Assembly: GCA_038881635.1 (NCBI GenBank)
Contig: JAVZPJ010000011.1
Location: 1 to 41,814, forward strand
Length of the DNA: 41,814 nt
Reading direction: 5' to 3'
Origin: Sulfolobales archaeon
GTDB lineage: Archaea > Thermoproteota > Thermoprotei_A > Sulfolobales > AG1
Under the pieces are notes generated by a model. The model searched no databases and was not told where the DNA came from. It worked only from the letters and a program-made list of their open reading frames with translations. A program made the position numbers and the translations under genes. This document shows positions 8,945 to 33,616 of the stretch, piece by piece. Each line of letters opens with the position of its first letter. The stretch's first letter is position 1.

Positions 8945-9368
8945 TCTTTCCCACCTCTCTCACCACCTTAAGAGGTCCTAGTTTTCTAATCTTCTCAACC
9001 ATATCCTGAGCTACTTCAATAAGTTTCTTAGCATCTGAAGCCGCTATCCACTCCAGCCTAAACCTCTCAGATTCCACACCCAACTGTTCTAAAAGTTTTC
9101 TCAGTAGAATTGCTCTTCTAAGAGCTTTATAGTTGCCCTCTATATAGTGGCAGTCTCCAGGTCTACAACCAGCAATAATAACACCATCAGCTCCATTAGC
9201 GAAAGCTTCTAATACAAGTTGAGGATCTACTCTACCAGAACACATAACTCTTATAATTCTTATATTAGGTGGATACTTCATCCTGCTAGTCCCAGCTAGG
9301 TCTGCCGCTGCATAAGCGCACCAATTACATGCAAACATCAAGATTTTAGGCTCGAATCTCTCACCCAT
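8937..9368 (-). CDS. mvhD: MvhD-like [2Fe-2S] electron-transfer subunit
   Basis: A 143-residue MvhD/FlpD-family protein. Cysteines at 14, 17, 43, 68 and 73 (FACNWCAY, VMCSGRVD, AGCRPGDCHY) match the [2Fe-2S]-binding pattern of MvhD, which docks hydrogenase onto HdrA. In Desulfovibrio-type QmoB the same domain is fused to the HdrA C-terminus. Here it is a separate gene four bases downstream of the HdrA-like gene. The ATG is preceded by GGGTGAG. This subunit is the expected physical link between the hydrogenase half and the Qmo half of the operon. Confidence 0.93.
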   Translation of the reverse strand: MGERFEPKILMFACNWCAYAAADLAGTSRMKYPPNIRIIRVMCSGRVDPQLVLEAFANGADGVIIAGCRPGDCHYIEGNYKALRRAILLRKLLEQLGVESERFRLEWIAASDAKKLIEVAQDMVEKIRKLGPLKVVREVGKIE

Positions 9369-9372
9369 ACTC

Positions 9373-12628: not shown

Positions 12629-13752
12629 CGAACAAACCCCCTCTCCTTAAGCATTTTAAGTCTTGCAAAGTATATGGCGAAGGGTCTATAAGCTAGATGC
12701 GACCATTTACCGAAAGGTACCATTAATACTAGAAAGCATGCAGCAAATATTATATGTAGTGCAAACATTACATAGGTTAGGAGCGGGTAATCTAGAGTTC
12801 TAAATATTCCAGTTAATACCCCGGATGCTACAGTTAAAGCTAGCAACCACGTGTAAATCCAGTCGCTAGTATGAGAGTACTTCCATACATGATACTTCTT
12901 CTCAAATCTCCCCTTAATTATATAGAATAACCCGATCAATAGTAAGATTATAGATATAATGCCTAGAATACTGAGAGGATGTTTAAATAGGAATGGCTCG
13001 TTAGTAAGAGTAAATCTTAGAAGAACAACGAATAATAGAAATGATAGAGCGTAGCCATAGAATATCATTAAATGAATGAAGTGATACTTTCTGAAAGAGC
13101 ATTTTGAAAGTTTAACCTGGGTAAAGAAATGCTTTGGAATCTCAACCAGCTCCCTAAGCGCCATACTTAGAGGTATACCTTTAAGGCTTCCAACAGTAAA
13201 CCTATACATTCTATAAATGTTTAATAGAAGGAATAAAGCTAGCAATGCAAATACTATTAATCCTGCAGTATCAACAACTACTACAGGAGCAAATGTTTCA
13301 AGCATTGTACGATCAGTAATAATAGGGCCTCTAAAAATCAAGCCGATAAGTAGTGTTATGGTAGCCACCACAAGTACTCCTATCAGCCAACCATACTTCG
13401 TTAAATGTAAAAATCTTGAAACACGACCTGTAAAATCATATTTAATTATAAGATATCTTCTAGCAGCTGCAAGTATCTCTGAAGGATCAGCTCCTTTAGG
13501 ACATGAATCTGAGCAGTCGCCACAATGATAACAAAGCCAAGGCTCAAGAGATGCAACAAGCTTATCCTCAACACCTAGTTTAACATATTTAATAACTTTC
13601 CTGGGGAAAGGCTCTCCACCATACTCCTCAGAGAAAGGACACGTAACTGTGCATACACCACAATCAAAACACTTACGAATACCAGATGCTCCAAGCATTT
13701 CAAGTGTGTTCATAAGATCAGGTTTAATTCTAAGAATACTTATTTTTGTCAT
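12625..13752 (-). CDS. QmoC-like membrane heme b / iron-sulfur subunit
   Basis: 375 residues. The N-terminal HdrC-like domain has two [4Fe-4S] sites: Cys28, 31, 34, 38 and Cys74, 77, 80, 84. The C-terminal half has about six membrane helices (near 121-141, 155-180, 224-246, 259-280, 297-317, 325-346) of the NarI/DsrM type. Candidate heme ligands are His224/227, His294 and His333. This is the QmoC domain fusion, which exchanges electrons with menaquinone. No HdrB-type CCG domain exists here or nearby, so a heterodisulfide reductase is unlikely. First gene of the operon; the ATG is 27 bases from the TATA centre, predicting a leaderless mRNA. Confidence 0.88.
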   Translation of the reverse strand: MTKISILRIKPDLMNTLEMLGASGIRKCFDCGVCTVTCPFSEEYGGEPFPRKVIKYVKLGVEDKLVASLEPWLCYHCGDCSDSCPKGADPSEILAAARRYLIIKYDFTGRVSRFLHLTKYGWLIGVLVVATITLLIGLIFRGPIITDRTMLETFAPVVVVDTAGLIVFALLALFLLLNIYRMYRFTVGSLKGIPLSMALRELVEIPKHFFTQVKLSKCSFRKYHFIHLMIFYGYALSFLLFVVLLRFTLTNEPFLFKHPLSILGIISIILLLIGLFYIIKGRFEKKYHVWKYSHTSDWIYTWLLALTVASGVLTGIFRTLDYPLLTYVMFALHIIFAACFLVLMVPFGKWSHLAYRPFAIYFARLKMLKERGFVR

Positions 13753-14371: not shown

Positions 14372-14382
14372 AGGTGGTGGTA

Positions 14383-14718
14383 TTGAGCTCGGCAAGTTTA
14401 ACAACAGGGTTAATCCCGATCCTAGTTATTGGAATCTTTTTCACCGGTATCTATATTCTATCCTATAGATCTTCTCTTCTCAGAGCCGGGAAGAGTAGGG
14501 AGAGAGCTCAGCCTTATACATCAGGAGTCTTGTTCAACACCAATCAATTCACGCATGTGAGCGATATGATTGTGTTCTTATCCATGCTTCTCGCAATCGA
14601 ATCTCTTATCATAGTTATATTCCTCGCAGGTGCTTCTCTCTGGCTTATGGCACTCTTCTCTGCATCTCTTCTCGTTGTAGTTCTCGGATATCTCATCTGG
14701 ATTGAAGGAGGGTTCTGA
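14383..14718 (+). CDS. NuoA-like small membrane subunit of the group 4 hydrogenase
   Basis: About 111 residues with three hydrophobic segments (near 7-26, 60-82, 85-106) and a cytoplasmic loop with RAQPYTSGVLF. That loop recalls the PYExG loop between helices 1 and 2 of NuoA, but with Ser in place of the Cys usual in complex I. Position at the front of an A-B-CD-H-I-J-K-L-N order supports the A assignment. The start is set at TTG 14383, because GAGGTG at 14371-14376 is six bases upstream. A GTG at 14374 is the alternative. The assignment is inferred from topology and gene order rather than strong similarity. Confidence 0.6.
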   Translation: MSSASLTTGLIPILVIGIFFTGIYILSYRSSLLRAGKSRERAQPYTSGVLFNTNQFTHVSDMIVFLSMLLAIESLIIVIFLAGASLWLMALFSASLLVVVLGYLIWIEGGF

Positions 14719-14720
14719 AG

Positions 14721-15173
14721 ATGGCGAGAGATAATCTTCGTATGATTAGGAAAAGTCCTTGGGTCTTCCACTTTAACTCGGGAGGCTGTAATGGCTGTGA
14801 TATCGAGGTTGTAGCTGCTTTCACTCCTAAGTATGATGTGGAAAGACTTGGCATGACTCTAACTTCATCTCCTAAGCATGCTGACATCCTGGTTGTGACA
14901 GGTCCTGTCACTAGACAGGTAGCGGGGTCTCTAAAGATGATCTATGATCAGATGCCTGAGCCTAAGATTGTTATAGCTATTGGAACATGTGCTTGCAGTG
15001 GAGGGATCTTTCGAGGAGGATATAATGTTATAGGAGGTGTTGATAAGATTATCAAGAACGTCATATGCGTACCAGGCTGTCCTCCAAATCCTAGAGCTAT
15101 CTATTCCGTGATCAAGAAATTATACGATAACAAGATCGGAGGCGATGAAGGTAATGGGAGCAGTAGATCTTAG
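14721..15173 (+). CDS. Group 4 [NiFe] hydrogenase small subunit (NuoB/EchC/MbhJ-like)
   Basis: A 150-residue Fe-S protein with the four ligands of the N2-type [4Fe-4S] cluster: SGGCNGCDIEV (Cys23, Cys26), GTCACSGG (Cys90), and VPGCPPNP (Cys120). It passes electrons from the ferredoxin-like subunit to the NiFe site at the membrane surface. Short, with no Tat signal or extra clusters, as in Ech/Mbh enzymes and complex I. Two bases separate it from the A-like gene, and its 3' end overlaps the C/D fusion by 29 bases. Confidence 0.93.
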   Translation: MARDNLRMIRKSPWVFHFNSGGCNGCDIEVVAAFTPKYDVERLGMTLTSSPKHADILVVTGPVTRQVAGSLKMIYDQMPEPKIVIAIGTCACSGGIFRGGYNVIGGVDKIIKNVICVPGCPPNPRAIYSVIKKLYDNKIGGDEGNGSSRS

Positions 15174-16812
15174 AAGAGATAAGGATTCCTCTGTAGTCCT
15201 AGTATCTCCAGACTCCTTCCCCGAAGCTATTAAAGCTACTATACCAAGCTACCCACATCTGATAACTATAACAGCTGTTCACATTGACGGCGGTATTGAG
15301 TTGATATACTCTTTCGATAACCTGAGAGGAGAGATGAGAAATATAATAGTAAGACTTCCAGAGAAGGAAGCTTCTATCCAGAGCATAAGCTCCTATCTCA
15401 AGGGATCCTATATATACGAGATGGAGGTAAGAGACTTATTCGGAGTAAACTTCCTAGGACATCCAATACCTAGCGCCAGACTTCTCCTACCAGACAGCTA
15501 CCCAACCAACGCACCACCACCACTCCTAAAAACAGTATCACTCGAACAACTCTCAAGAATACTAGATGAAGCACAAAGACAGGAACCCCCTACAATGCTC
15601 ACACCTGTAACAGGATCCTCTAGATATAGTGTTGAAAGTCTAGTAATACTCCCATTCGGCCCCTACCACCCCGCTCTCAAAGAACCCGAGCACTTCGCTA
15701 TAGCATTGGAAGGAGAGAGAATAGTAGAAGCCATGCCTAGAATAGGCTATGTTCATAGAGGTATAGAGAAGCTTGCTGAAAACAGAACATATCTACAAGT
15801 ACTCTTCCTAGTCGAGAGAGTATGCGGTATATGTAGCTTCCATCATTCATGGACTTATACAATGGCTGTAGAAAAGCTACTAGGCATAACACCTAGCAAG
15901 AGAGCAGAGTATCTGAGAACACTAGTCGCAGAACTCGAGAGAATACACAGCCATACTCTCTGGATAGGACTTCTAGGCTACTGGAGCGGTTTCGACACAA
16001 TGTTCATGTGGCTTTGGTCTGCTAGAGAGAGGATTATGAAGCTTCTAGAGATGATAGCCGGGAACAGAGTTAACAAGTCATTTATAACAATAGGAGGTGT
16101 GAGACGCGATGTATCAGATGAGAAGCTGAAGATAATATTGAGAGAGATAGCAGAATTCGAGAGAGAATTCAGAAAGATAACAGATGAGGTAATGTCTTAC
16201 GACCCCCTCATAGAGAGAGTAAGAGGTATAGGCTCTTATAATGCGGAGACAGCAATCCTCTCAGGAGCTGTAGGTCCCGTGCTAAGAGCTGCTGGAATCC
16301 CCTACGATATTCGAAAGATAGAGCCCTATGGAGCTTATCCAGAGATCTCATTTAACGTGATCACAGGAAGCAGAGGAGATGTTCTATCTATCGCAGATGT
16401 AAGAGTTAGAGAAACATTTGAATCTATAGAGATAATTAGACAAGTCATAGAGAAAATACCCTCAGGAAATCCTGTTCCTCCCACATTCTTCACAGGCGGA
16501 GGCAGAGATGGAGAAGCTATCGCTAGAACAGAACCTCCTAGAGGAGAACTCTACTACTACATCAGAGGAAGAACTGGGATGAAAACCCCTTACAGAGTTA
16601 AGATCAGAACTCCTACACTTCCCAACCTCGTTCTAGCTTCAGAAGCTCTTAAAGGCTATACCTTATCAGATATTCCTCTAATACTCACTATGATAGATCC
16701 TTGTTTCAGCTGTGAGGATAGAGCTATAGTATATGTTGGAAGAAGAGATCCATTCATAGTTAAACTACATCGAACCCCTCCCAGAGAAATCAGCGGAGGA
16801 TGCACCCTATGA
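15145..16812 (+). CDS. Fused NuoC-NuoD-like large subunit of a group 4 [NiFe] hydrogenase
   Basis: 555 residues. Residues ~1-140 are NuoC-like, ending with YEMEVRDLFGVNFLGHP. Residues ~160-555 form the catalytic large subunit. Both nickel motifs are intact: RVCGICS (Cys227, Cys230) and DPCFSCEDR (Cys520, Cys523). Complex I NuoD has lost these, so this is a true hydrogenase. About 29 residues follow the L2 Arg and may be trimmed. A C-D fusion is known in some hydrogenases and some complex I enzymes. Two starts compete, ATG 15145 (GGAGG only two or three bases upstream) and ATG 15154. Confidence 0.94.
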   Translation: MKVMGAVDLRRDKDSSVVLVSPDSFPEAIKATIPSYPHLITITAVHIDGGIELIYSFDNLRGEMRNIIVRLPEKEASIQSISSYLKGSYIYEMEVRDLFGVNFLGHPIPSARLLLPDSYPTNAPPPLLKTVSLEQLSRILDEAQRQEPPTMLTPVTGSSRYSVESLVILPFGPYHPALKEPEHFAIALEGERIVEAMPRIGYVHRGIEKLAENRTYLQVLFLVERVCGICSFHHSWTYTMAVEKLLGITPSKRAEYLRTLVAELERIHSHTLWIGLLGYWSGFDTMFMWLWSARERIMKLLEMIAGNRVNKSFITIGGVRRDVSDEKLKIILREIAEFEREFRKITDEVMSYDPLIERVRGIGSYNAETAILSGAVGPVLRAAGIPYDIRKIEPYGAYPEISFNVITGSRGDVLSIADVRVRETFESIEIIRQVIEKIPSGNPVPPTFFTGGGRDGEAIARTEPPRGELYYYIRGRTGMKTPYRVKIRTPTLPNLVLASEALKGYTLSDIPLILTMIDPCFSCEDRAIVYVGRRDPFIVKLHRTPPREISGGCTL

Positions 16813-17780
16813 GCTATCCACTTCCTCTAATACCTCTCATGGTTCTAGCCTCTATCATAGCATTCCTACTCCTAAGCTTCTTCTTCGAGTGGGTAGAGAG
16901 AAAAACTCTAGCGAGAATTCAGAAGAGAATCGGACCATACTTCACAGGCCCGGGAGGAGTTCTTCAACCATTAGTAGATTTTCTCAAGCTACTAAGCAAG
17001 AAAGAGCTGATCTCTGAAGGAACAGATATTCTTCTCTACAGGCTTTCAGCATTGATCGGTGTCATCATCCTAGCATATGGATTCCTCTACATACCATTCT
17101 TCTCCACAGACCCTCTCCTAAGCTTCGAAGGAGATCTACTGATGATAATACTCGTATTCATCCTAACCTCCTTCTCATATCTTATCGCGGGAACATCTGT
17201 TAGAACTCCATTCACTCTGGTAGGCACGAGCAGATTAATAGTCCAGTACTCTCTATACGAGCTTCTATACCTCTCATGCTTCGTCATAGTATTCTTCCAA
17301 GTAGGCTCTCCAACAATCTCAGAGATAGTCCGCTACCAGGAGCAGAGCATGCCTCTCATAATATTCCAGCCACTAGGATTCATCGTAGCAGTACTCTCTC
17401 TCCTAGCAAAACTCGAGAGACCTCCCTTCGACCTTCCACATGCTAAGCAAGAGATTGCCGCAGGCTGGATGAGCGAGCTCTCAGGCAGAACTCTTGCCTT
17501 CATAAGACTATCTAACAACATGGATCTAACTTTAAGCACACTACTCATCGTAGCCTTCTTCCTCGGAGGAGGATCCGGGCCTATGACCTCTACAACACCG
17601 ATTCTATGGCCTGTATACTTCCTGATCAAAGCTCTAGCCGTTCTAATCCTACTCACACTCATAGAAGGAATTGCTGTGAGAGTTAGAAGCATGTATCTTC
17701 CCATGAGACTTGCTCTCCCACTCTCATCCCTACTAGTTGTTCAAGCGATACTAGTCATAGGCTGGAGGATGGGATTATGA
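16809..17780 (+). CDS. NuoH/HyfC-like membrane subunit
   Basis: A protein of about 323 residues with roughly eight helices. The H-subunit signature is near the N-terminus: ERKTLARIQKRIGPYFTGP, then GVLQPLVDFLKLLSKKE. A second family motif follows in LERPPFDLPHAKQEIAAGW. Known: this subunit links the catalytic module to the antiporter-like pumps and lines the quinone or proton funnel in complex I. The start was placed at ATG 16809, in an ATGA overlap with the large subunit stop and with GGAGG nine bases upstream. The ATG at 16800 lies inside that ribosome site. Confidence 0.92.
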   Translation: MSYPLPLIPLMVLASIIAFLLLSFFFEWVERKTLARIQKRIGPYFTGPGGVLQPLVDFLKLLSKKELISEGTDILLYRLSALIGVIILAYGFLYIPFFSTDPLLSFEGDLLMIILVFILTSFSYLIAGTSVRTPFTLVGTSRLIVQYSLYELLYLSCFVIVFFQVGSPTISEIVRYQEQSMPLIIFQPLGFIVAVLSLLAKLERPPFDLPHAKQEIAAGWMSELSGRTLAFIRLSNNMDLTLSTLLIVAFFLGGGSGPMTSTTPILWPVYFLIKALAVLILLTLIEGIAVRVRSMYLPMRLALPLSSLLVVQAILVIGWRMGL

Positions 17781-18148
17781 GAAGAAGATATGGAAACATG
17801 GTTCTTGAAGCTATAAGAAGTCTTCTTAGAAAACCAGAGACTCTACCTTCGAAAGAGATCGAGAGAAAGATCTTCACAGAAGAGTCTAGAGGGATCCCGA
17901 CTCTTATAGCAGATAAATGTATAGGATGTTCTCTATGTGCAATGACCTGCCCCTCTCAGGCTATAACAATGATACCTGGAGGAAAGAGATCTATAGGAGG
18001 TAGAGTTATCGAGATCAAGATCCCGAGCTTCGACTACTCTAAATGCATATACTGCGAGCTCTGCGCCCAGATCTGCAAACAGAACGCTATAGAGATCAGA
18101 AAAGATCAGGATCCTATAATAATCATGAAAAATGGTGAGAGCCGATGA
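17777..18148 (+). CDS. NuoI/HycB-type 2[4Fe-4S] ferredoxin subunit
   Basis: 123 residues with two [4Fe-4S] motifs: CIGCSLCAMTCP (Cys48-58) and CIYCELCAQICK (Cys90-100), where the usual proline after the last Cys is Lys. It would take electrons from soluble ferredoxin and hand them to the small subunit. A ~30-residue N-terminal amphipathic part probably lies on the membrane. It overlaps the H-like gene and the J-like gene by ATGA junctions. No NADH-binding E/F/G subunits are present in the window, so ferredoxin is the likely donor. Confidence 0.92.
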   Translation: MRRRYGNMVLEAIRSLLRKPETLPSKEIERKIFTEESRGIPTLIADKCIGCSLCAMTCPSQAITMIPGGKRSIGGRVIEIKIPSFDYSKCIYCELCAQICKQNAIEIRKDQDPIIIMKNGESR

Positions 18149-18600
18149 ATGATATCTCATCAGCTCTCGCAGTGTTGGGAGCTATGTTCATAATATACTC
18201 GCTAATTAGCATTAGATGGTCTGTATGCGTGATCTCGATCTTCTTAGGCTCTCTACTTCTAGGTACTTCAATAGCTATCAAAGTAGAACCCATGGCTGGA
18301 CTAGCTGTGATCATTATATACAGTGGAGGGCTTACAGCTCTCACATATATAGCATCTATTCTGCTCAGTAGAAGAGAGATCGAGATAAAAACGATCATGA
18401 GATTAGTAGAAGTAGTAGCACTACCACTTCTCATATCAACTCTATTCTCAATCACTCTCCTAGTAAAAGATTTAGAGAGTAGGATAAGCATCACAACCCC
18501 GGTCTTCTCAATAGGTTCTCTTGATATAACCTCCCTCTCTATAGCTCTTGTAATGAGTGTTGGAGTCATAATCATCCTACTCGGAGGTGGTAGAAGATAG
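18145..18600 (+). CDS. NuoJ-like membrane subunit
   Basis: 151 residues with five hydrophobic segments. The stretch AVIIIYSGGLTALTYIAS matches the helix 3 region of NuoJ, where a Tyr-x-Gly-x2 pattern makes the pi-bulge involved in coupling. It starts in an ATGA overlap with the ferredoxin subunit and its last base is the first base of the K-like start codon. In Mbh-type hydrogenases the equivalent position is taken by an MrpA-tail protein. Here the sequence looks closer to NuoJ, though this needs profile comparison. Confidence 0.8.
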   Translation: MNDISSALAVLGAMFIIYSLISIRWSVCVISIFLGSLLLGTSIAIKVEPMAGLAVIIIYSGGLTALTYIASILLSRREIEIKTIMRLVEVVALPLLISTLFSITLLVKDLESRISITTPVFSIGSLDITSLSIALVMSVGVIIILLGGGRR

Positions 18601-18878
18601 TGTTATTATCAGATCTCATAATATCATTCCTACTCGTGAGTGCTGGCATAGCTTCTATACTTATCTATAGAAGTCTCTTCAGATTTATCCTAGGAATCTT
18701 CTCAGCATCTCTAGGAGCAGTATATCTTCTCTCATCACTACAATTCTCATCTCCGGCTATAGTGATCATAGCAAGCATTCTAGGGATCTCTGAAGCAGTT
18801 CTAATATCATTTCTACTCTCTCTTGCTAGAAGCAGAAGAGTAGAAGATTTCGATGAGTTAAGAGAACACTCGGGGTGA
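18600..18878 (+). CDS. NuoK/MrpC-like membrane subunit
   Basis: 92 residues with three hydrophobic helices, the length and topology of NuoK/MrpC. ILGISEAVLISFLLSLAR in the third helix carries a glutamate in the position typical for the family's buried carboxylate, and the charged tail (RSRRVEDFDEL) is cytoplasmic. The GTG start shares one base with the preceding stop (TAGTG). Its place between the J-like and L-like genes is the same as in Nuo and Mrp operons. Confidence 0.82.
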   Translation: MLLSDLIISFLLVSAGIASILIYRSLFRFILGIFSASLGAVYLLSSLQFSSPAIVIIASILGISEAVLISFLLSLARSRRVEDFDELREHSG

Positions 18879-18884
18879 GATCCT

Positions 18885-20564
18885 ATGAACACTTCCTCAA
18901 TCCTACTACTAGTTCTCTCAATGAACAGCTTCATAGCCTCTGCTCTGATACTTCTCTTCAGAAGGAGAATAATAGCTGAGATCCTGGCAAACGCTTCAGC
19001 ATTTCTCTCTCTAGCGATCTCAGCATATCTCATGATATATGAAAGACTACCCATACAAGTATCAATACTTCCACACATCTCTCTATACATGGACAAGCTC
19101 TCCGCAGTATTCTCTCTAGTCATAGGTCTCATAGGATCTGCTGTCACCATGTACAGCATTGAATACATGAGAGAAGCTAGAGATTTCACAAGATACTACT
19201 CTCTAATATCTCTCTTCATAGGAGCCATGCTAAACCTGGTTCTAGCATCCGACATAGTATACCTGCTTCTCAACTGGGAGCTCGTAGGATTATGCAGCGC
19301 TCTTCTAATAGCATACTGGTGGGAGAAGAGAGAAGCTAGAAGAGCTGGGATGAAGGCTCTTATAATGACCAGAATAGGAGATATAGGTTTGATAGCTTTT
19401 GCATCAATCTCGATATACTATGGATTCTATAGTATTCCAGAAATCCTAGGATCTCAAGAGACAGCCTTAAAACTAGCTCCATTCCTACCACTCCTAGTAC
19501 TCGCAGCAATAGGAAAATCAGCTCAATTCCCACTACACACATGGCTGCCAGATGCTATGGAGGGACCTACAACTGTTAGCGCACTTCTCCATGCAGCGAC
19601 AATGGTTAAAGCTGGAGTATATCTAATGCTTCGATTCCACCCGATTCTCATAGAGAATCAGATGACTACAACCCTGCTCTTCATATTATCTCTCATAACA
19701 ATCTATCTATCATCTCTCGCAGGACTTGTTTCAATGGATATAAAGAGAATTCTCGCTTACAGCACTATCAGCTCTCTATCTCTCATGTTCCTAGCCATAT
19801 CAGTAGGCGAGCTCTACATAGCTCTTCTCTATCTATTCAACCACGCTCTATTCAAAGCCTTGCTATTCCTAACAAGCGGTAGTGTAGAACACTCTCTACA
19901 TACAAGAGATATATCAAAGCTGAGAGGACTTTGGGCGAGAGGATTCAGAATCGAGACAATAGGCTTCCTAGCTGGAGCTCTCAGCGCTGCAGGACTTCCT
20001 CCTCTCTCCGCAGGACTTGTAAAAGAAGAACTTCTCATCGGAATATCATCTGAGATGACACTAGTAGAACGCTACCTAGTTACAAGCACTATATCATTTC
20101 TAATGTCTCTCTTCATAATGAGACCCTTCGTACTATCATTCATAAGCACTATAGAAAGAGAGAGCAGAGATGAGAAGATGAGAGAACCTATAATGAATGG
20201 TGTTAATCTGATCCTCCTTATAACGACCCTCACAGCATTCATCCCTACATATATTATCTCAGAGTATCTCGGGGTAGGATATTTAAAATCTGAGATTCAT
20301 GTAGCTCCAATACTTGGAGTATTACTTGGAATAATATGCGCATTTCTAATACCAAGGATCAGATTAGAGATAAGTGATCTCATGAGGAGATTCGTGGAAA
20401 CCTCTCTAGGACTTGATCTCATCTACAATAGATTGGGAGAGGTATTCTACGAAAGTTTATCTATTAAGAGTTCTAGAGTTAATAGTGGCAGAGCTTCTCA
20501 AGGTCTGAAAGGACTGATAATCATCATCATTATAATAACCTTGATCGTGGTGATCTCCTCATGA
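18885..20564 (+). CDS. NuoL/MrpA-type antiporter-like subunit
   Basis: 559 residues and about 14-15 helices. Proton-channel residues are visible: the glutamate helix LLNWELVGLCSALLIAYWW, LLHAATMVKAGVYLMLRF with the broken-helix lysine, and FNHALFKALLFLTSGSVEH. Shorter than NuoL (~610), it still has a C-terminal amphipathic part and a final helix (about 540-558), which may act as the lateral arm. It would translocate H+ or Na+ driven by hydrogenase turnover. The ATG follows GGTGAG. Confidence 0.92.
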   Translation: MNTSSILLLVLSMNSFIASALILLFRRRIIAEILANASAFLSLAISAYLMIYERLPIQVSILPHISLYMDKLSAVFSLVIGLIGSAVTMYSIEYMREARDFTRYYSLISLFIGAMLNLVLASDIVYLLLNWELVGLCSALLIAYWWEKREARRAGMKALIMTRIGDIGLIAFASISIYYGFYSIPEILGSQETALKLAPFLPLLVLAAIGKSAQFPLHTWLPDAMEGPTTVSALLHAATMVKAGVYLMLRFHPILIENQMTTTLLFILSLITIYLSSLAGLVSMDIKRILAYSTISSLSLMFLAISVGELYIALLYLFNHALFKALLFLTSGSVEHSLHTRDISKLRGLWARGFRIETIGFLAGALSAAGLPPLSAGLVKEELLIGISSEMTLVERYLVTSTISFLMSLFIMRPFVLSFISTIERESRDEKMREPIMNGVNLILLITTLTAFIPTYIISEYLGVGYLKSEIHVAPILGVLLGIICAFLIPRIRLEISDLMRRFVETSLGLDLIYNRLGEVFYESLSIKSSRVNSGRASQGLKGLIIIIIIITLIVVISS

Positions 20565-21868
20565 ACATGGAGTCTCAGATTCTCATTCTCATACTCATAT
20601 ACACGATTCTATCCTACACCATATACTCCTTCTCAAGAAGATTCAGAGATACATCTATCACTCTACTTTCAATAATAACAGGAGTTTCAATAGCTTATCT
20701 CTCTATCGAATCTAGAGGTGTGGGAGGTCTAATAGGTTTAACAGGATCAATAACACTACTAGTGTCACTAGCAATAGCCGAGATCTATAAGATAGAGAAG
20801 AGAGCTATGCTCTCAATACTAGGAGTATACTTCCTATCAACCTCACTTCTCATCCTAACCACAGATAGCATTCTAAGACTTTTCATATACTGGGAGATAG
20901 TTGCAATGCTAATGATCGGAAGTCTAGCTCTCTACAGAAGTAGAGACGGCTATGAAGCCGCACTTAAGTACGCAGTCATATGCCTTCCAGGCTCTATAAT
21001 AGGTCTCATAGGCTTGATACTAGCTGTCTCGGAAACAGGATCTTTAACCTTTCCATATATCCTCTCCGAAGCCAGCATCATTTCTAAAACTCTCATGGTG
21101 ATAGGCTTTGGAACTGAGATAGCTTTATTCCCAATGTACATATGGCTTCCCAGTGTTTATCTAGGTATGCAACCTCTTCTTCTAGCGATCGAGGTTGTTT
21201 CAATACTCCCTGCAACATCTTATATTATAGGAGTTATAGCTTCTACAAATCCTGTGATAGCTGTGTCAACTTCAACTCTAGCTCTCCTAGGATCTCTTAT
21301 AGGATCTCTCTCAGCCATTGTACAAAGAGATCTGAGAAGACTTCTAGCTTATAGCACTCTCGCACACACAGGATACATAGTTCTAGGAATCTCTGTAGGA
21401 ACCACTCTGGCTACAAGCTACGCCATATTACACATGATCGCACATGGAATTCCTAAGGCATCACTACTAGCAGTAGCTTTCATCCTTCTAACAAGATCAG
21501 GTGCAGACGATCTGAAAAACTTATCAAGCTTAGGAGGAGAGTATAGATTCATATCAATAGGAGGAGCTCTAGCACTTCTAGGACTACCACCATTCCTCAG
21601 CTTCTGGAGCGAGCTCTATATATTCCTAGGAACATTCTATGCTGGAATCATGTGGAGCATGCTAGCCATAGTCTATGCAATCGTGATCATCCTCTCAACA
21701 GGTTATGCCTTCAGAATAGTATACGCATACTCTGGAGAATCAACTGAGAAAAAAGATGTGGGAAGAGATCTCTCAGGAATCCTAGTTCTAATACTCTTCC
21801 TACTCTCACTACTCTTATCACCTTTACAAAGCCTGATACTTCAATACTTTCTAGGATTCTCTCCATAG
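20561..21868 (+). CDS. NuoN/NuoM-type antiporter-like subunit
   Basis: A 435-residue, roughly 12-13-helix protein of the proton-pumping antiporter family. Seen: IYWEIVAMLMIGSLALY (channel glutamate), KYAVICLPGSIIGLIGL, QRDLRRLLAYSTLAHTGYIVLGIS and HMIAHGIPKASLLA with the lysine helix. It is the second pump-like subunit and the last gene of the operon, joined to the L-like gene by ATGA. Two antiporter-like subunits sets this apart from Ech (one) and puts it between Ech/Mbh and complex I. Confidence 0.9.
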   Translation: MNMESQILILILIYTILSYTIYSFSRRFRDTSITLLSIITGVSIAYLSIESRGVGGLIGLTGSITLLVSLAIAEIYKIEKRAMLSILGVYFLSTSLLILTTDSILRLFIYWEIVAMLMIGSLALYRSRDGYEAALKYAVICLPGSIIGLIGLILAVSETGSLTFPYILSEASIISKTLMVIGFGTEIALFPMYIWLPSVYLGMQPLLLAIEVVSILPATSYIIGVIASTNPVIAVSTSTLALLGSLIGSLSAIVQRDLRRLLAYSTLAHTGYIVLGISVGTTLATSYAILHMIAHGIPKASLLAVAFILLTRSGADDLKNLSSLGGEYRFISIGGALALLGLPPFLSFWSELYIFLGTFYAGIMWSMLAIVYAIVIILSTGYAFRIVYAYSGESTEKKDVGRDLSGILVLILFLLSLLLSPLQSLILQYFLGFSP

Positions 21869-21903
21869 AAGTATTCTGAGTCATTCAAAACCTCAAAAAG
21901 TTT

Positions 21904-22401
21904 CTAGATCTCAGTATATTCTCTGAGTATCAAATTCATTGAACTGATAAATCTCTTAACAGGTGGAGATAGCTCTTCTCCGATATAGAATCTCTCACCT
22001 CCTATACCTATGATAGTGATCTTCTTAAGAGGAGCACTAGCTTTTAAAATCCTGAGAACCATAGAAATAGGAATTCTATGAGACCAAACAATCTTCTCAT
22101 CCAGATCTTCTAAATCCATTAAGAAAACCCTTCCAGCATTCTCAACTCCAAGAGCTGCGGAGTCAAGAATTAAAAGTCTCTCAGGCTTCTTCCTCATAAT
22201 TCTATCAAGACAGTTCTCAAGTCCTTCTTCGCATAGGATTATCTTCTCTTCCTCTGTAAGATCTCGTAGAATACTGCAGAGCTTTAGAGCTGCAGCATCA
22301 TCAGATCTGAATCGAGTCCCAATACATATGATAAGAGATGTGCAAGTTCTAATCTCCTCCAGTATTAGATCTGCTAGTTCTTTCTCTGATAATTCTCTCA
22401 A
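21904..22401 (-). CDS. HycI-type [NiFe] hydrogenase maturation endopeptidase
   Basis: 165 residues. ICIGTRFRSDDAAAL (about 30-44) aligns with the N-terminal Ni-binding motif, with Asp39 in place of HybD Glu16 but without the usual glycine after it. LLILDSAALG supplies the second Asp, and WSHRIPISMVLRIL the conserved His. It is convergent with the group 4 hydrogenase operon and most likely processes that enzyme's large subunit, as HycI does for HycE. Together with the protease at 5956-6477 there is one processing enzyme per hydrogenase. Confidence 0.85.
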   Translation of the reverse strand: MRELSEKELADLILEEIRTCTSLIICIGTRFRSDDAAALKLCSILRDLTEEEKIILCEEGLENCLDRIMRKKPERLLILDSAALGVENAGRVFLMDLEDLDEKIVWSHRIPISMVLRILKASAPLKKITIIGIGGERFYIGEELSPPVKRFISSMNLILREYTEI

Positions 22402-27865: not shown

Positions 27866-28114
27866 CTATAATATCTTCTCCACAACTCTTATAGTTATCA
27901 CCGCAAATCCTTCTCTCCTCTCAATAGATTCTATCCTTAGTCCAACCTCCTCCACATGCTTAGGTATATAATCTATGCAACTCTCATCATCTGTATAGAT
28001 CCTTATAACACCTCCTTCACCTACTCTGAACAGGATCTTGACAAGCTCTACAAAAGGTTTAGGACATAACTGACCTCTTGTATCTAAAACCTCTTCCCTC
28101 ACATCATCACTCAA
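27866..28114 (-). CDS. TusA/SirA-family sulfur carrier (first of two)
   Basis: 82 residues, IF3C-like alpha/beta fold. VLDTRGQLCPKPFVELV carries the CPxP motif with active Cys17, which in TusA proteins holds a persulfide. TusA relays sulfur for tRNA thiolation or molybdopterin synthesis, and some members (the YedF type) occur beside SelD. The start is TTG 28112-28114. It is 52 bases downstream of the SelD-like gene and shares its strand and operon. It is only distantly similar to the second copy at 29613-29891. Confidence 0.88.
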   Translation of the reverse strand: MSDDVREEVLDTRGQLCPKPFVELVKILFRVGEGGVIRIYTDDESCIDYIPKHVEEVGLRIESIERREGFAVITIRVVEKIL

Positions 28115-28166
28115 TAGAATTCCACCGCCTTCTCATTTATACTCTCTAGAAACTGATAAACCTATT

Positions 28167-29606
28167 CTACGAGACCTCATAGTATTCGAATTCTCTAAGG
28201 TAGGTCTTCGAAGCTATGAATCTCCTCAGATTAGAAGGCGCCAGAACCCTGGGTCCTTCTCTTGAGATAATTCTTCCAATTCTCACTGGATTTTCTCCAT
28301 ATCCTCTCAACTCCTCCTCGATCTCTTCAATAACTCTTTCACTCGCTACAAAGATTACAGCTCCATTAGTTCCAGCCGTGGCATTAGGCATTATATAGCT
28401 TCTCGTGGCAAACTCGCTGAGCTCAGGAGATATGAGTGGTATTCTCTCTAATCTTATAGATGCTCCAGAGAGTTCTGCAAGCTCCTTGATAACATACACT
28501 CCTGGTCCTGTCACATCTGTCGTAGCCGCTATATGTCTGCTAGGATCGAATTCTTCACCTATCTGAGGTAGTTTCCCCTCAATGATCCTGGCTATATGGA
28601 TATTAGGTCTGCTCATGAGATCTATCACATATCTCTTGATCTCTAGAATCTTTTCAATAGTAATCCCATAGCTTCTTCTAAGCTCCTCAGCAATATCTCT
28701 ATCATACATAGCCATAAGATAAACGTTTATAGGAGCCAGCTCTCCGAAAGGTCTTGAAGCTAGGATAATCATTCCAGGAGAGATCCTGTCATAGAACATT
28801 GGAGGTGTTCTATCAGTCTCCGCAAAAACCGTGGCACCCATGAGAAGAGCTCCCGAGCTAGGCTGCGAAGCTCTAAGGATCCTGGCGCCAATACTCTCAG
28901 CAAGACTTCTCATGTTATCTTCAATGATATTCTTAAGCTTCTCTGATGGAGCATCTGCCACAGGTATGATCGTGGTATTCCTCCAAGCTCCTAGAATATA
29001 TAGATCGTTGAGAGAATTCCCTAGAGCTACCGCTGTCTGTCTAAGACTTCCAGGACTTTCTGCGGGGTCTATAATCTGAATCGTGTCATTATTACCTAGG
29101 ACAAGTCTATCTCTATCTCCTTCTACTCTTACGAAGTCGAAGAGCATGAACTGAGCCTTGGGATCTGCTGAAACTATTGAATGCCCTTTACCAATAACTA
29201 TTCTTCCAACAGATCTCGCGATCTTCTCGTAGACTCCTCCTACTATCCTCGAAACAAGCTCGGGATCTCCGGCATTCCTCTGATATATCTGAACTAGAAC
29301 TACAGCTCTCTCTGGAGAGAATCTTATCAGCCTCTCCTGATCAACCTCCTCCTCGCTTCTATATATCTCTCTATGAACTCTAAGTCCTTCAACAGATCCT
29401 TTGAATATATCAGCATCTCTTCGAGGAAGTATGCTCAATCCCTCAATCTCTAGAGGTTCTTTAATTCTTCTGAGAGCTGGATAGAGTACCGAGACTAGAT
29501 CTATTTTAACAGCACATCCCGTAGCCAGCGTCAGAGGATTTACACCGAGAGACCTGTATTCTTCTACTCTCTCTAGAAACTCTCTAGAGAGATCATCATA
29601 ACTCAA
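28167..29606 (-). CDS. SelD-like ATP-dependent kinase of the PurM/SelD/HypE/ThiL superfamily
   Basis: 479 residues. The N-terminal LATGCAVKIDL (Cys31, Lys34) matches the Cys-x2-Lys catalytic pair of selenophosphate synthetase. Downstream SPERAVVLVQIY, LGNNDTIQII and VALGNSLNDLYILGA fit the AIRS-fold ATP site. The C-terminal IAATTDVTGPGVYVIKELAEL recalls the DVTGFG segment of SelD. It is much longer than SelD (~350), with extra segments around 60-130. No selenoprotein or Sec gene is visible. It is flanked by TusA-like genes (7 and 52 bases), so activation of sulfur or selenium on a carrier is the inferred role. The TTG start is at 29606. Confidence 0.75.
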   Translation of the reverse strand: MSYDDLSREFLERVEEYRSLGVNPLTLATGCAVKIDLVSVLYPALRRIKEPLEIEGLSILPRRDADIFKGSVEGLRVHREIYRSEEEVDQERLIRFSPERAVVLVQIYQRNAGDPELVSRIVGGVYEKIARSVGRIVIGKGHSIVSADPKAQFMLFDFVRVEGDRDRLVLGNNDTIQIIDPAESPGSLRQTAVALGNSLNDLYILGAWRNTTIIPVADAPSEKLKNIIEDNMRSLAESIGARILRASQPSSGALLMGATVFAETDRTPPMFYDRISPGMIILASRPFGELAPINVYLMAMYDRDIAEELRRSYGITIEKILEIKRYVIDLMSRPNIHIARIIEGKLPQIGEEFDPSRHIAATTDVTGPGVYVIKELAELSGASIRLERIPLISPELSEFATRSYIMPNATAGTNGAVIFVASERVIEEIEEELRGYGENPVRIGRIISREGPRVLAPSNLRRFIASKTYLREFEYYEVS

Positions 29607-29612
29607 TTGATC

Positions 29613-29891
29613 CTACCTCTTCCTAATAGATATCCTAAATTCACCAACACCCAGCTTCTCAACAGATACTATCTCTAAACCTCTCTCCCTAGCTAGGTTC
29701 AATATATTCTCAACACTAGCTGGATTATCAACGAAAATTTCTAGAACAGATCCTCTCTCAATACTCTCAAGAGCTTTCAAAGCAAGTATCTGAGGATAAG
29801 GACACATATATCCTCGAGCATCAATCATGTAAAATCCTTCTCTAATTCTCAAAATCTCAGATCTTTTTTCACCCATCTTCTCATCCACCAT
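29613..29891 (-). CDS. TusA/SirA-family sulfur carrier (second copy)
   Basis: 92 residues with a ~20-residue N-terminal extension, then MIDARGYMCPYPQILALKAL. CPYP has active Cys30. The C-terminal beta strand IVSVEKLGVGEFRISI completes the TusA fold. First gene of the TusA-SelD-like-TusA run, six bases ahead of the SelD-like start. The promoter TATA at 29916-29925 predicts a nearly leaderless mRNA from the ATG at 29891. CPYP in place of CPxP variants with Lys suggests the two carriers have different partners. Confidence 0.88.
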   Translation of the reverse strand: MVDEKMGEKRSEILRIREGFYMIDARGYMCPYPQILALKALESIERGSVLEIFVDNPASVENILNLARERGLEIVSVEKLGVGEFRISIRKR

Positions 29892-29988: not shown

Positions 29989-30584
29989 TTGACAAATACT
30001 TATAATGACAAATTCTCCGTAGTGTCATTGGTGACATCCTTAAGCAGGGAATTAGATAGACTGAATCTCGAAGCTTTTAGATCTCTCTTAGAAGAAGTCA
30101 AGAGAAATCCTAAGCCTGCCTCGAAGATTAATAGGTGGGATGCTAGAGTGAGAGAACTTGGCGAGGGTTCTAACTTCAGATCATATGCTAGAGATCATAA
30201 TCTCCTGATCTCAGAACCTTCAGAACTTAGAAGACATGGTAAAAGTCCTAACGCTGTTGAATTTGTGATCTCAGCTTCTAGAGATAGAACAGGTGATCTC
30301 GATCAAAATATCAAGCTTTTGAAAGAATATCTAGGCGGTAGAGAAATAGTATTAGACGTGTTAAATCCTGGAAGTGATGAGATCGAGGATCCTAGGATTA
30401 CTGTTGCGAAAGTTGAGAGAATTCTGAAGCACGCTGACCCTAGGAAGATCTATCTCAACCCTGACTGTGGACCTGGAATATTCTCAAAAGCACCTTCTAA
30501 CACTCCTAGAAGTGCTTTTAGAAAATCGAGACCCATGAGAGTTGTGCCGAAGAACTGAGAAGAGCTTGTGAGGGATTAAATTGA
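29989..30584 (+). pseudogene. Decayed MetE-like (cobalamin-independent methionine synthase superfamily) remnant
   Basis: The open frame gives 189 residues, ending at 30558. Its second half matches the C-terminus of UROD/MetE-superfamily methyltransferases: EIEDPRITVAKVERILKH, then KIYLNPDCG with the last zinc Cys. Genuine members have ~310-340 residues and an upstream His-x-Cys zinc pair, which is missing here. After ATG 30535 the frame turns to MRVVPKN, but the -1 frame continues ESCAEELRRACEGLN and stops at 30582-30584, overlapping the rhodanese TTG start in a TTGA coupling. I infer an internal loss plus a frameshift. A new short functional protein cannot be excluded. Confidence 0.6.
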
Positions 30585-31402
30585 GAGATCTAGATATTCT
30601 ATACGTGGAACCCGAGGATCTTCTCAGGGGCGTCAGAGAAAAAAGATATATACCAATCGATGTGAGAACCTTCACATATTATACTAGATCTCATGTGCCT
30701 TCATCTGTATGGCTCTATGTCTGGGATCTAACAGAACACGAGAAAGGACATCCTTCAAAACCTAAGGATATATCAGAGATAGCGGTAATTCTAGGGAGAA
30801 ACGGCGTATCTAGAGAAGATCAAGTGGTCATAGTATACGATGAAGAGAGTATAGGATTAGCATCATATCTCTACTGGTATCTATATTATTTGGGTCAGAA
30901 CAATGTGAAGATGCTAAGAGGAGGATTTGAAGAATGGATGAAGAGAGGAATGCCAGTAGAGAAAGGAATTCTAAAACCCACACCATCCGAGTATAAACCT
31001 CTTCCGAGAGAGAATGTAAGAGCTTTCATAGATGATGTGATAAGGATCTCCAGAAGAGAAAGAAGAGGATTACTTCTAGACGTGAGAACATACGAAGAAT
31101 ATACAGGAGCTCTTAAAACCACGAGAAGAGCTGGAAGAATACCGGGTTCAGTATGGGTTCCTCTAGAGAGTTTTCTCAGAATGCTGAGAGGAGATGAGAA
31201 AGCTTTTGAAGAGGTTTTAAGCATTCTAAGAAGTTCTAGAGGAGAGCTTGAAGGTGATATCATAACATATTGTACTGTTGGAGTGAGATCTTCAGTAGCA
31301 TGGGTGGCTCTGAAAATTCTCGGAGGATTAGAGAGAGTAAAGCTTTATCCTGAATCATTCTACGAATACTCTTTAAGAGAAGATCTAGATATAGAGATCT
31401 AG
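30581..31402 (+). CDS. Tandem-rhodanese sulfurtransferase
   Basis: 273 residues with two rhodanese domains. The N-terminal domain (~5-128) has DVRTFTYYTRSHVPSSVW but in its loop the catalytic position reads VYDEESIG, with Asp in place of Cys, so it is inactive. The C-terminal domain (~145-270) has DVRTYEEYTG and the active loop YCTVGVRSS with Cys231. This is the thiosulfate/3-mercaptopyruvate sulfurtransferase layout. The TTG start at 30581 has GAGGG about seven bases before it. It could load persulfide sulfur onto the nearby TusA- or MoaD-like carriers. Convergent with the MoaD-like gene. Confidence 0.9.
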   Translation: MRDLDILYVEPEDLLRGVREKRYIPIDVRTFTYYTRSHVPSSVWLYVWDLTEHEKGHPSKPKDISEIAVILGRNGVSREDQVVIVYDEESIGLASYLYWYLYYLGQNNVKMLRGGFEEWMKRGMPVEKGILKPTPSEYKPLPRENVRAFIDDVIRISRRERRGLLLDVRTYEEYTGALKTTRRAGRIPGSVWVPLESFLRMLRGDEKAFEEVLSILRSSRGELEGDIITYCTVGVRSSVAWVALKILGGLERVKLYPESFYEYSLREDLDIEI

Positions 31403-31417
31403 ATCATATAATAAGGA

Positions 31418-31654
31418 TCAGCCTCCTGCAAATGGTGGCATAACCAGGATCTCATCTCCGTCTCTAAGGATCTGTCCTTTGCTAGGAAATCTATAGTTTA
31501 CAAAGAACACTGGTTTTATCCTTGTTTCTCCGAGCTCTTCTAATATCATTCTCTCTAGATCCTCTATAGTGGTATTGTCATCTACCTCTATAACGCGTTC
31601 TCTACCCATTTTCTCAGCATAGATCGATATGAATTTTATAATTATTCTCTTCAT
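31418..31654 (-). CDS. MoaD/ThiS-family ubiquitin-like sulfur carrier
   Basis: About 78 residues of beta-grasp fold ending in PPFAGG, the C-terminal Gly-Gly that is adenylated and thiocarboxylated. MoaD supplies dithiolene sulfur to molybdopterin or tungstopterin. Its place, divergent from AOR with 66 bases between them, suggests a role in cofactor synthesis for that tungstoenzyme. Archaeal SAMP-type protein modifiers are the alternative. The ATG at 31654 is chosen over the adjacent TTG at 31657, since GGGAG lies about six bases upstream. Confidence 0.88.
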   Translation of the reverse strand: MKRIIIKFISIYAEKMGRERVIEVDDNTTIEDLERMILEELGETRIKPVFFVNYRFPSKGQILRDGDEILVMPPFAGG

Positions 31655-31657
31655 CAA

Positions 31658-31720: not shown

Positions 31721-33616
31721 ATGCCTCCAGGAGGTTACATGGGCAGAGTTTTGAGAGTAGATCTCTGGAGTGAGAAAATCCGCGTAGAACAGCTCCCACC
31801 CGAGAATATCCTGCGTAGATGGCTTGGTGGTAGAGGTCTCGGAGTATACTATATGCTTAAAGAAGTTAATCCGAAAGTAGATCCTCTAAGTCCTGAGAAT
31901 AAAGCTATCGTAGCTACAGGACCTATCACAGGCGTTACCGGGATACCTACTGCTGGAAGATGGTGTTCTGTCACTAAATCACCTCTAACAAATACTATTC
32001 ATGATTCTCAGAGTGGAGGTAGGTTTGGTCCTGAGCTTAAATTCGCAGGCTTCGACCTAGTGATTATAGAGGGGAAGGCTGAGAAGCCATTATACCTCTG
32101 GATTCATGATGGAAAAGCTGAGCTTAGAGATGCAAAGAATCTATGGGGTAAGGATACTCATGCAACAACAGATTCAATAATTGAAGAGATGACTCCCGTG
32201 ATCGGGAGAGATGAAGCTAGACATATAAGTGTAGCCACCATAGGTCCTGCAGGAGAGAGACTTGTAAGATTCGCGGCAATAATAAATGAGAGAGGTAGAG
32301 CAGCTGGTAGAGGTGGTCATGGTGCTGTTTGGGGTAGCAAGAATTTCAAGGCCATAGCTGTGAGAGGTCATATGAAACCTCCCATAGGTAATGAGAGCAG
32401 GTATAGAGAGGTTGTAGCGAAATCCGCAGAACTTATCAAGAAATCTCCTGTCACAAGCGAGGGACTTCCCAAGTACGGCACCGCAGTACTGGTAAACATA
32501 ATCAATGCTCATGGAATATTCCCCACGAGAAACTTCCAGACAGGAGTATTCCCAACAGCGGATAAGATTAGTGGGGAGACTATAGCTAGAGAGATCATGG
32601 ATTGGGAGAAGCATAAAGAGGTGATATGCTGGGGATGTCCTATTGGATGTGCTAGATATACTAGAGTTAAGAGCGGCAGGTTCTCAGGCGAGGGCGACGG
32701 ACCTGAGTATGAGAGTGTATGGGCTTTAGGAGCTCAGACGGGAACAGATGATCTTGCTGCTGTAGCTAAGGCTAACTATCTCTCGAACGAGCTAGGCGTG
32801 GATACCATATCAGCTGGTAGCACTATAGGTGCTTTCTTCGAGCTTGTTGAGAAGGGTAAGATACCTAAGGAGAAGCTTAGAGGATTAGATGCTAGATGGG
32901 GTAGTGGAGAGGCTCTGGTAGATCTTATATGGAGAACCGCATACAGATCTGGTGTTGGAGATGATCTTGCTGAAGGCTCTATGAGAATGGCAAGCAAATA
33001 CGGTGCTCCGGAGGTTGCCATGGTTGTAAGAGGTCAAGAGCTTCCAGCATATGATCCTAGAGGAGTTCAAGGTCACGCACTAGCGTATGCCACCAGCAAC
33101 AGAGGTGGATGTCATCTGAGAGCTTATATGATATCTCCAGAGATTCTAGGAGTACCCATGCAACTAGATAGATTCTCTACAGAAGGTAAGGGTAAGATCT
33201 TGAAGGAGATGCAAGACGTGTTCGCAACAATAGATAGCATGGTTGTATGTAAGTTCGTCACATTCGCATACTACTCTGATGTTCTCGCTGAACAGGTATC
33301 CGCGGTAACAGGATGGGATATGAGTGTAGAAGAGTTTACAAAGATCGGTGAGAGGATCTATAATGCTGAGAGAGCTTTCAACGTGCTAGCATTCGGAGAC
33401 GGAGAAGAATATGATACACTACCTAAGAGACTTCTCGAAGAACCAATGCCTGAAGGACCTTCAAAAGGTCATGTAGCGAGAATTAAGGAGATGCTCCCAG
33501 AATACTATACTGCGAGAGGATGGGTTAAAGGTAGACCTACTAGAGCTAAACTCGAGGAACTCGATCTAAAATGGCTCGCAGACAAACTAGAGGAGGAAGG
33601 ACTGCTACCCGCATAG
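31721..33616 (+). CDS. aor: Aldehyde:ferredoxin oxidoreductase (AOR family, tungsten)
   Basis: A 631-residue tungstopterin enzyme oxidising aldehydes to acids with ferredoxin as acceptor. Seen: N-terminal YMGRVLRVDLWSEKI and RWLGGRGLGVYYM, typical of the domain 1 pterin site. The [4Fe-4S] ligands are CWGCPIGC (Cys303, 306, 310) with the distant Cys510 in MVVCKFVTF. The second pterin motif is DPRGVQGHALAYATSNRGG. Length and spacing match Pyrococcus-type AOR, though formate- or glyceraldehyde-type members look similar. MoaD upstream and a tungstate importer downstream support tungsten use. A T-run after the stop ends the transcript. Confidence 0.95.
   Translation: MPPGGYMGRVLRVDLWSEKIRVEQLPPENILRRWLGGRGLGVYYMLKEVNPKVDPLSPENKAIVATGPITGVTGIPTAGRWCSVTKSPLTNTIHDSQSGGRFGPELKFAGFDLVIIEGKAEKPLYLWIHDGKAELRDAKNLWGKDTHATTDSIIEEMTPVIGRDEARHISVATIGPAGERLVRFAAIINERGRAAGRGGHGAVWGSKNFKAIAVRGHMKPPIGNESRYREVVAKSAELIKKSPVTSEGLPKYGTAVLVNIINAHGIFPTRNFQTGVFPTADKISGETIAREIMDWEKHKEVICWGCPIGCARYTRVKSGRFSGEGDGPEYESVWALGAQTGTDDLAAVAKANYLSNELGVDTISAGSTIGAFFELVEKGKIPKEKLRGLDARWGSGEALVDLIWRTAYRSGVGDDLAEGSMRMASKYGAPEVAMVVRGQELPAYDPRGVQGHALAYATSNRGGCHLRAYMISPEILGVPMQLDRFSTEGKGKILKEMQDVFATIDSMVVCKFVTFAYYSDVLAEQVSAVTGWDMSVEEFTKIGERIYNAERAFNVLAFGDGEEYDTLPKRLLEEPMPEGPSKGHVARIKEMLPEYYTARGWVKGRPTRAKLEELDLKWLADKLEEEGLLPA

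Follow-up and report, generated by a model that had tools for sequence, protein, structure and literature searches.

We find that the window, by which we mean the whole stretch of 41,814 nucleotides that was analysed, encodes a three-gene operon in which a SelD-like ATP-dependent enzyme lies between two TusA-type sulfur carriers, and we give roughly even chances to the reading that this operon is a sulfur-activation unit, in which TusA-bound sulfur would be activated in an ATP-dependent manner. As judged by profile, the enzyme is a full-length member of the NCBIfam family NF038049 (SelD_rel_HyperS, “SelD-related putative sulfur metabolism protein”), which it matches with 616.9 bits against a cut-off of 250 over residues 9-474 of 479. 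This is the family described by Li et al. in 2014 (PMC4210487) and is therefore not new; the “possible S/Se activation system” that an earlier note had read from the letters of this DNA was thus already published as a family. The genes concerned, with the neighbours to which we refer below, are:

29613-29891, minus strand: TusA-type sulfur carrier 1, the operon's first gene (92 aa, ATG start; CPYP motif; YedF-like N-domain)
28167-29606, minus strand: SelD-like ATP-dependent enzyme (479 aa, TTG start)
27866-28114, minus strand: TusA-type sulfur carrier 2 (82 aa, TTG start; CPKP motif; of a subfamily other than that of carrier 1)
29989-30558, plus strand: remnant ORF of 189 aa, outside the system (5' part osmC-like, joined to a metE-like 3' part)
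30581-31402, plus strand: tandem rhodanese of the thiosulfate/3-mercaptopyruvate sulfurtransferase type (PF00581, 91 bits), divergent from the operon
31418-31657, minus strand: MoaD/ThiS-like protein, judged to lie outside the conserved unit (PF02597, 35.6 bits)
31721-33616, plus strand: aldehyde ferredoxin oxidoreductase (AOR), judged to lie outside the conserved unit (PF01314, 502 bits)

The earlier note had placed the three genes in one operon at spacings of 6 and 52 bases, and the open reading frames and gaps are as it described (29607-29612 between carrier 1 and the SelD-like gene, 28115-28166 between the latter and carrier 2), both TTG starts being preceded by a purine-rich ribosome-binding-like sequence (aagaggtaggatcaa-TTG and aaggcggtggaattcta-TTG). 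The genome reading covered 1.40 of 1.405 Mb, with about 2.3 kb of contig 10 left out, and the only two TusA genes in it are those that flank the SelD-like gene. Neighbourhoods were counted for 65 SelD-like loci. In 52 of these a TusA gene is found no more than 8 genes away; 29 have one immediately upstream in the same orientation, and 23 have one at a distance of one or two genes on the downstream side. With the genome's only TusAs at its two sides and TusA close by in 52 of 65 loci, the adjacency of TusA and SelD-like genes exceeds chance.

The SelD-like protein has, in its predicted structure, the fold of a selenophosphate synthetase. An AlphaFold2 model built with 43 aligned relatives (mean pLDDT 94.3) found E. 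coli SelD (3u0o) as its best Foldseek match (E 4.4e-17), followed by human SEPHS1, Leishmania and Aquifex SelD and then HypE and ThiL, with the best PDB matches, to SelD/SEPHS1, running from E 4.4e-17 to 1e-14. Searches of the PDB by single sequence gave no match, and a profile search found human SEPHS1. The scores against the SelD equivalog TIGR00476 (26.6 bits, cut-off 125) and PRK14105 (34.4 bits, cut-off 291) both fall far below their thresholds. The Cys-x2-Lys of the earlier note is Cys31-x2-Lys34 (codons TGT and AAA), aligned by MAFFT with Cys17 and Lys20 of E. coli SelD, while Asn197, Asp201 and Asp364 correspond to its Asn87, Asp91 and Asp227 in both an hhalign profile alignment and MAFFT; all five residues are invariant among the 43 relatives. 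For Asp51 and Asp68 of E. coli SelD, motifs suggest Asp64 and Asp174 as candidate equivalents that are ambiguous in sequence alignments. The note had also envisaged that ATP-site residues might prove to be lost on alignment; those that could be mapped are all kept, and together with the catalytic Cys and Lys and the modelled fold they predict a SelD-type ATP-dependent enzyme.

The likeness to SelD thus comprises the fold, the Cys-x2-Lys and the Asn87, Asp91 and Asp227 equivalents, but identity over the fold is 15-17%, and the window protein, at 479 residues against 347 in E. coli SelD, is longer by 132, close to the estimate of some 130 made from the window alone. By alignment count the extra residues comprise about 14 at the N-terminus, about 91 between the Lys20 and Asp75 equivalents and 27 between those of Asp91 and Asp227, and the insertion of about 91 residues carries an invariant GKGH at residues 139-142.

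The two carriers belong to different subfamilies. Both match Pfam TusA PF01206 (73.2 bits for carrier 1 and 48.2 bits for carrier 2, cut-off 28.6) and share the CPxP motif common to YedF and TusA, yet neither reaches the equivalog cut-off for YedF or for TusA. The CPYP carrier 1 scores best with YedF among NCBIfam models (PRK11018, 54.2 bits, under the cut-off of 79); however, at 92 aa it is a TusA domain alone, without the DsrE-like C-terminal domain that defines YedF (PMC5322559), and it reaches 41.1 bits, under the cut-off of 110, with TIGR03527, which models YedF as TusA plus a DsrE-like domain. In a TusA tree, Thermoproteota TusAs encoded upstream are separated from those encoded downstream (99/96). 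Carrier 1 joins the upstream TusA of L052, the locus of the nearest relative, on the CPYP/upstream side (100/97). The partners of carrier 2 are the downstream TusAs of L053-L056 (99/95), a placement to be read with caution on account of its long branch.

The family is spread more widely than previously described. Li et al. report it from Sulfolobales and Thermoproteales, in genomes without the selenium trait, with SirA-like (TusA) and Prx-like neighbours and, in Thermoproteales, a fused acylphosphatase (PMC4210487). Of the 398 genomes searched in the phylum, 72 have an NF038049 match at E 1e-10, and in 58 of them it passes the cut-off. Matches below the cut-off fall into two sorts: family f50 contributes a divergent set (six genomes, of which three members, L046-L048, were read), and the others are short and probably represent different proteins with the PurM fold. 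Named genomes, when scanned, gave 63 SelD-like loci, and members beyond the two published orders occur in Desulfurococcaceae AG1 (the nearest relative, with 67% identity to the window protein), Pyrodictiaceae, Acidilobaceae, Ignisphaera and Aeropyrum, in several Thaumarchaeota (marine and groundwater MAGs among them), in Baldrarchaeota and in the bacterial Bipolaricaulota/Acetothermia. Single MAGs may contain binning errors, but several marine loci (L077, L078, L079 and L084) share the order SelD-like, TusA, TusA, rhodanese, which L091 has with one of the two TusAs. The description “hyperthermophilic sulfur-reducing archaea” thus no longer covers the family. The host of the window likewise belongs to neither of the two orders in the paper. 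The window gene has in common with the family the catalytic Cys and Lys, the lack of any known selenium use and the SirA/TusA-like neighbour, here present on both sides; the published Prx-like (COG2210/DsrE-type) neighbour is a feature of context, and the window genome has no DrsE_2 match.

Two observations on particular lineages may be recorded here. The three f50 proteins that were read keep the Cys but replace the catalytic Lys by Glu (CSNE), lack the NND motif and have no TusA neighbour; judging by these sequences they probably represent a lineage with changed or lost activity. Beside the SelD-like genes of L077, L078, L079, L084, L091, L097, L107 and L108, from marine Thaumarchaeota and Bipolaricaulota, are exported-looking beta-propeller proteins (YncE/YVTN type), and the bacterial ones that were read end in a Cys-Cys motif.

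Beyond TusA, the recurring neighbours among the 65 loci are YedE/Sulf_transp (22), tandem rhodanese (12), DsrE-type proteins (6) and an acylphosphatase, which is a separate gene in 23 loci and fused to the SelD-like protein in 12 (fusion being judged by length). The order YedE-TusA(CPYP)-SelD-like-acylphosphatase recurs among loci, and its fullest form, YedE-TusA(CPYP)-SelD-like-acylphosphatase-TusA, is seen in L067, with L076 similar. The rhodanese of the window, which the earlier note had named among the genes nearby, has a 52% identical homologue beside the SelD-like gene in L052 and homologues of about 30% identity beside it in Thaumarchaeota and Bipolaricaulota loci, so that this part of the described neighbourhood does recur elsewhere. 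A cysteine-synthase-like gene directly adjoins the SelD-like gene in loci of the Acidilobaceae type and in a Bipolaricaulota MAG.

The acylphosphatase bears on a first alternative, in which the SelD-like protein and the acylphosphatase would act as HypE and HypF do in NiFe hydrogenase maturation, handling a carbamoyl- or acyl-phosphate group instead of a free chalcogenide; Li et al. have a Model 1 that comes close to this (PMC4210487). The two systems share a PurM-type ATP-binding fold and an acylphosphatase-type domain, HypE is the next-best fold family for our model, HypF has an acylphosphatase domain (the HypF of the window genome is a match in C5), and in many lineages an acylphosphatase is fused to or adjoins the SelD-like gene. 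We nevertheless regard it as unlikely: the protein is closer to SelD than to HypE in sequence and modelled fold, with no HypE match at E 0.01 in a profile search (one relative reaches 31.8 bits, below the cut-off of 251.6), the SelD-type N-terminal Cys-x2-Lys is invariant, no carbamoyltransferase-type partner accompanies it, and its partners are sulfur carriers, not Hyp proteins. In the window genome the acylphosphatase that most resembles the SelD-linked partners of relatives lies at another locus as a standalone gene (C1:42738-43034), 52% identical to that of L054. In L050, L051 and other Thermoproteales the acylphosphatase is a C-terminal fusion, as Li et al. described (proteins of 567-586 aa), with the motif's Arg and Asn recognisable.

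Co-occurrence was assessed in 36 genomes with and 44 without a SelD-like gene, drawn as available; because the latter are not phylogenetically matched to the former, part of each p-value below reflects kinship. At least two TusA genes were present in all 36 carriers as compared to 7 of the 44 other genomes (p 5e-16, inflated by kinship), and a YedE/TsuA-type transporter (YedE/Sulf_transp) in 29/36 as compared to 3/44 (p 6e-12, likewise inflated). Contrasts within genera between genomes with and without the SelD-like gene point the same way, YedE numbering 2 vs 0 in g14, 2 and 2 vs 0 and 0 in g19, and 2-3 vs 0 in g45, and TusA 2 vs 0 in g14 and 5-6 vs 1 in g45, with a mixed picture in g19; the YedE trend is thus the same in three genera and the TusA trend in two of three.

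The same genomes bear on a second alternative, namely that the system belongs only to dissimilatory sulfur oxidation or reduction of the TusA-DsrE-Hdr/Apr type and has no biosynthetic role. DrsE_2 is indeed enriched (31/36 vs 9/44, p 5e-9, inflated by kinship), and AprA, confined to families f21 and f30, is found in 16 of the 36 carriers, that is, in all tested carriers of those families, and is absent from the g45 genomes without the SelD-like gene, in agreement with PMC4210487; within 6478-13752 the window itself encodes QmoC-like and HdrA-like proteins and a hydrogenase of Mvh type. AprA, DrsE_2 and YedE, however, were all absent from the window genome when searched for, the carriers include MAGs of marine Thaumarchaeota and Bipolaricaulota, and the cysteine-synthase neighbour points to biosynthesis, so that a purely dissimilatory role seems improbable to us.

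The third alternative concerns selenium. A true selenophosphate synthetase that feeds some other selenium use, such as a cofactor that contains selenium or a carrier of a new kind, would be expected to have the fold and active site of SelD, as is predicted here. In bacteria, YedE and YedF beside SelD mark selenium use (PMC5322559), and the same three superfamilies are neighbours in many relatives of the window operon, so that a selenium role might be read from them in this family too; in these relatives, however, SelD is replaced by the SelD-like protein, the Sec and selenouridine genes are absent and an acylphosphatase is added, and from the window genome YedE is absent. Orphan SelDs are known to serve selenium-dependent molybdenum hydroxylases (PMC2276186), and by analogy an XDH-type hydroxylase might be the client: such enzymes are enriched among carriers (25/36 vs 13/44, p 6e-4, inflated by kinship), and one adjoins the SelD-like gene in the Sulfolobaceae loci L049 and L085, but none was found in the window genome or in 10 other carriers, and we rejected this candidate. 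TusA number, and not XDH or AOR, tracks the SelD-like gene in every genome tested.

Of the known selenium sinks, neither SepSecS nor selenouridine synthase (SelU) nor tRNA-Sec was found, in the 1.40 of 1.405 Mb searched here or in the carriers, and selenocysteine and selenouridine use were rejected accordingly; no tRNA with a UCA anticodon is present. The lack of Sec machinery that the earlier note had reported from the window alone thus extends to the whole 1.4 Mb genome, and the complete selenocysteine system that would make the enzyme an ordinary SelD was not found. RF01852 also recognises class II tRNAs and so gives matches in all genomes, which we did not accept as tRNA-Sec; the only one over threshold here is tRNA-Ser(UGA). 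Matches to PF05889 in four genomes were likewise not accepted as SepSecS, being short, partial and near or just over a low cut-off, with a Bacillus subtilis control matching too; we read them as other PLP enzymes. Selenophosphate synthesis for another selenium use is accordingly a reading to which we attach little probability.

The earlier note had further suggested, from the AOR and MoaD-like genes nearby, that an activated chalcogen is used for tungstopterin or for the sulfido/selenido ligand of AOR. The setting is suggestive at first sight, with an AOR, a MoaD-like gene and a Mo/W-type ABC transporter within 8 kb in the window and six AORs in the genome. AOR is nevertheless present in 28/36 genomes with the SelD-like gene and 38/44 without it (Fisher p = 0.38), is not matched in seven family f5 (Sulfolobaceae-type) carriers (G028, G036, G067, G088, G119, G173 and G244) or in G302, and occurs several times over in many SelD-like-free genomes. 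The control genome of Sulfolobus acidocaldarius likewise gave no AOR match. In the flanking sequence examined for the 82 other SelD-like loci an AOR is found once, in L095, and a MoaD homologue never. The transporter comes after the AOR and adjoins it, which suggests that AOR, MoaD and transporter form a tungsten module of their own that merely lies alongside. We rejected AOR/tungstopterin as the general client, and sulfur or selenium activation specifically for these enzymes is in our view very improbable. What stands of the earlier suggestion is the combination of a SelD-type enzyme with TusA-type carriers, with no known route for selenium; what falls is the link to tungstopterin, and of the neighbours it named the rhodanese recurs and AOR and MoaD do not. 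The AOR of L095 (Caldivirga sp. UBA161, at 5-1591) is 34% identical to that of the window.

The clients suggested by neighbourhoods (AOR and XDH-type hydroxylases) are thus not obligate and the known selenium uses are absent, which leaves as the conserved set the SelD-like enzyme, the two TusA subfamilies, an acylphosphatase, and a rhodanese or YedE; the 1.4 Mb genome of this archaeon has a near-minimal version of it. A SelD-type active site, two kinds of carrier, a transporter or rhodanese and no selenium sink together argue for ATP-dependent activation of sulfur, most simply as thiophosphate. A sulfurtransferase, for which the tandem rhodanese is the probable candidate (or, in relatives, the YedE/TsuA-type transporter), would load sulfane sulfur onto the CPYP TusA; the SelD-like enzyme would take this sulfur, or sulfide released from the CPYP TusA, at Cys31 and phosphorylate it by means of Lys34 and the SelD-like Mg-ATP site, giving a thiophosphate-type product. 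Either this product or sulfur derived from it might then be received by the second TusA or by an enzyme that uses sulfur, and in most lineages the acylphosphatase would presumably take part. It counts against this reading that, to our knowledge, the carriers among marine Thaumarchaeota and Bipolaricaulota are not known sulfur reducers, so the source of the substrate probably differs among carriers, and that the window genome lacks YedE, DrsE_2 and AprA.

The cysteine-synthase-like gene that adjoins the SelD-like gene in the Acidilobaceae-type and Bipolaricaulota loci makes cysteine synthesis a candidate sink. In selenocysteine synthesis a PLP enzyme uses selenophosphate, and the analogy between that enzyme and the cysteine-synthase partner is suggestive only. 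We put forward more tentatively than the sulfur-activation unit itself, and as something we would not yet bet on, a dedicated thiophosphate-dependent pathway in archaea and some bacteria, parallel to that of selenophosphate, in which TusA-bound sulfur, activated by the SelD-like enzyme at the expense of ATP, would reach a PLP enzyme of the cysteine synthase type or another acceptor via the second TusA. We know of no enzyme that makes thiophosphate as a biological sulfur donor. Thiophosphate synthesis, with sulfur preferred over selenium, was proposed from fewer genomes by Li et al. (PMC4210487), in whose main text we found neither the association with YedE nor the pattern of two TusAs, nor the broader range of hosts or the AOR/XDH co-occurrence tests. 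Reviews of 2022 and 2026 still rate the function of the SelD-like protein as speculative (PMC9312934, PMC13188914), and in the literature to 2026 we found citations of the thiophosphate proposal and no experiment on the function of the family. With the recurring partners now mapped in many archaea and in a few bacteria, that function can be put to the test.

Some features of the window outside the system also deserve mention. The remnant ORF at 29989-30558 matches the OsmC (47-53% over about 79 aa) and the MetE of L052, where intact OsmC, OsmC and MetE genes followed by the rhodanese occupy the same place, so that a deletion in the window likely gave rise to it. On the minus strand at 6478-13752, genes for F420-non-reducing-type hydrogenase subunits (VhuA/VhuG-like and MvhD) adjoin two HdrA-like genes and one for a QmoC-like membrane protein, in a host genome without AprA. 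At 14374-22401 lies an operon for a complex-I-like membrane-bound hydrogenase or oxidoreductase, followed on the opposite strand by a hydrogenase maturation protease gene.
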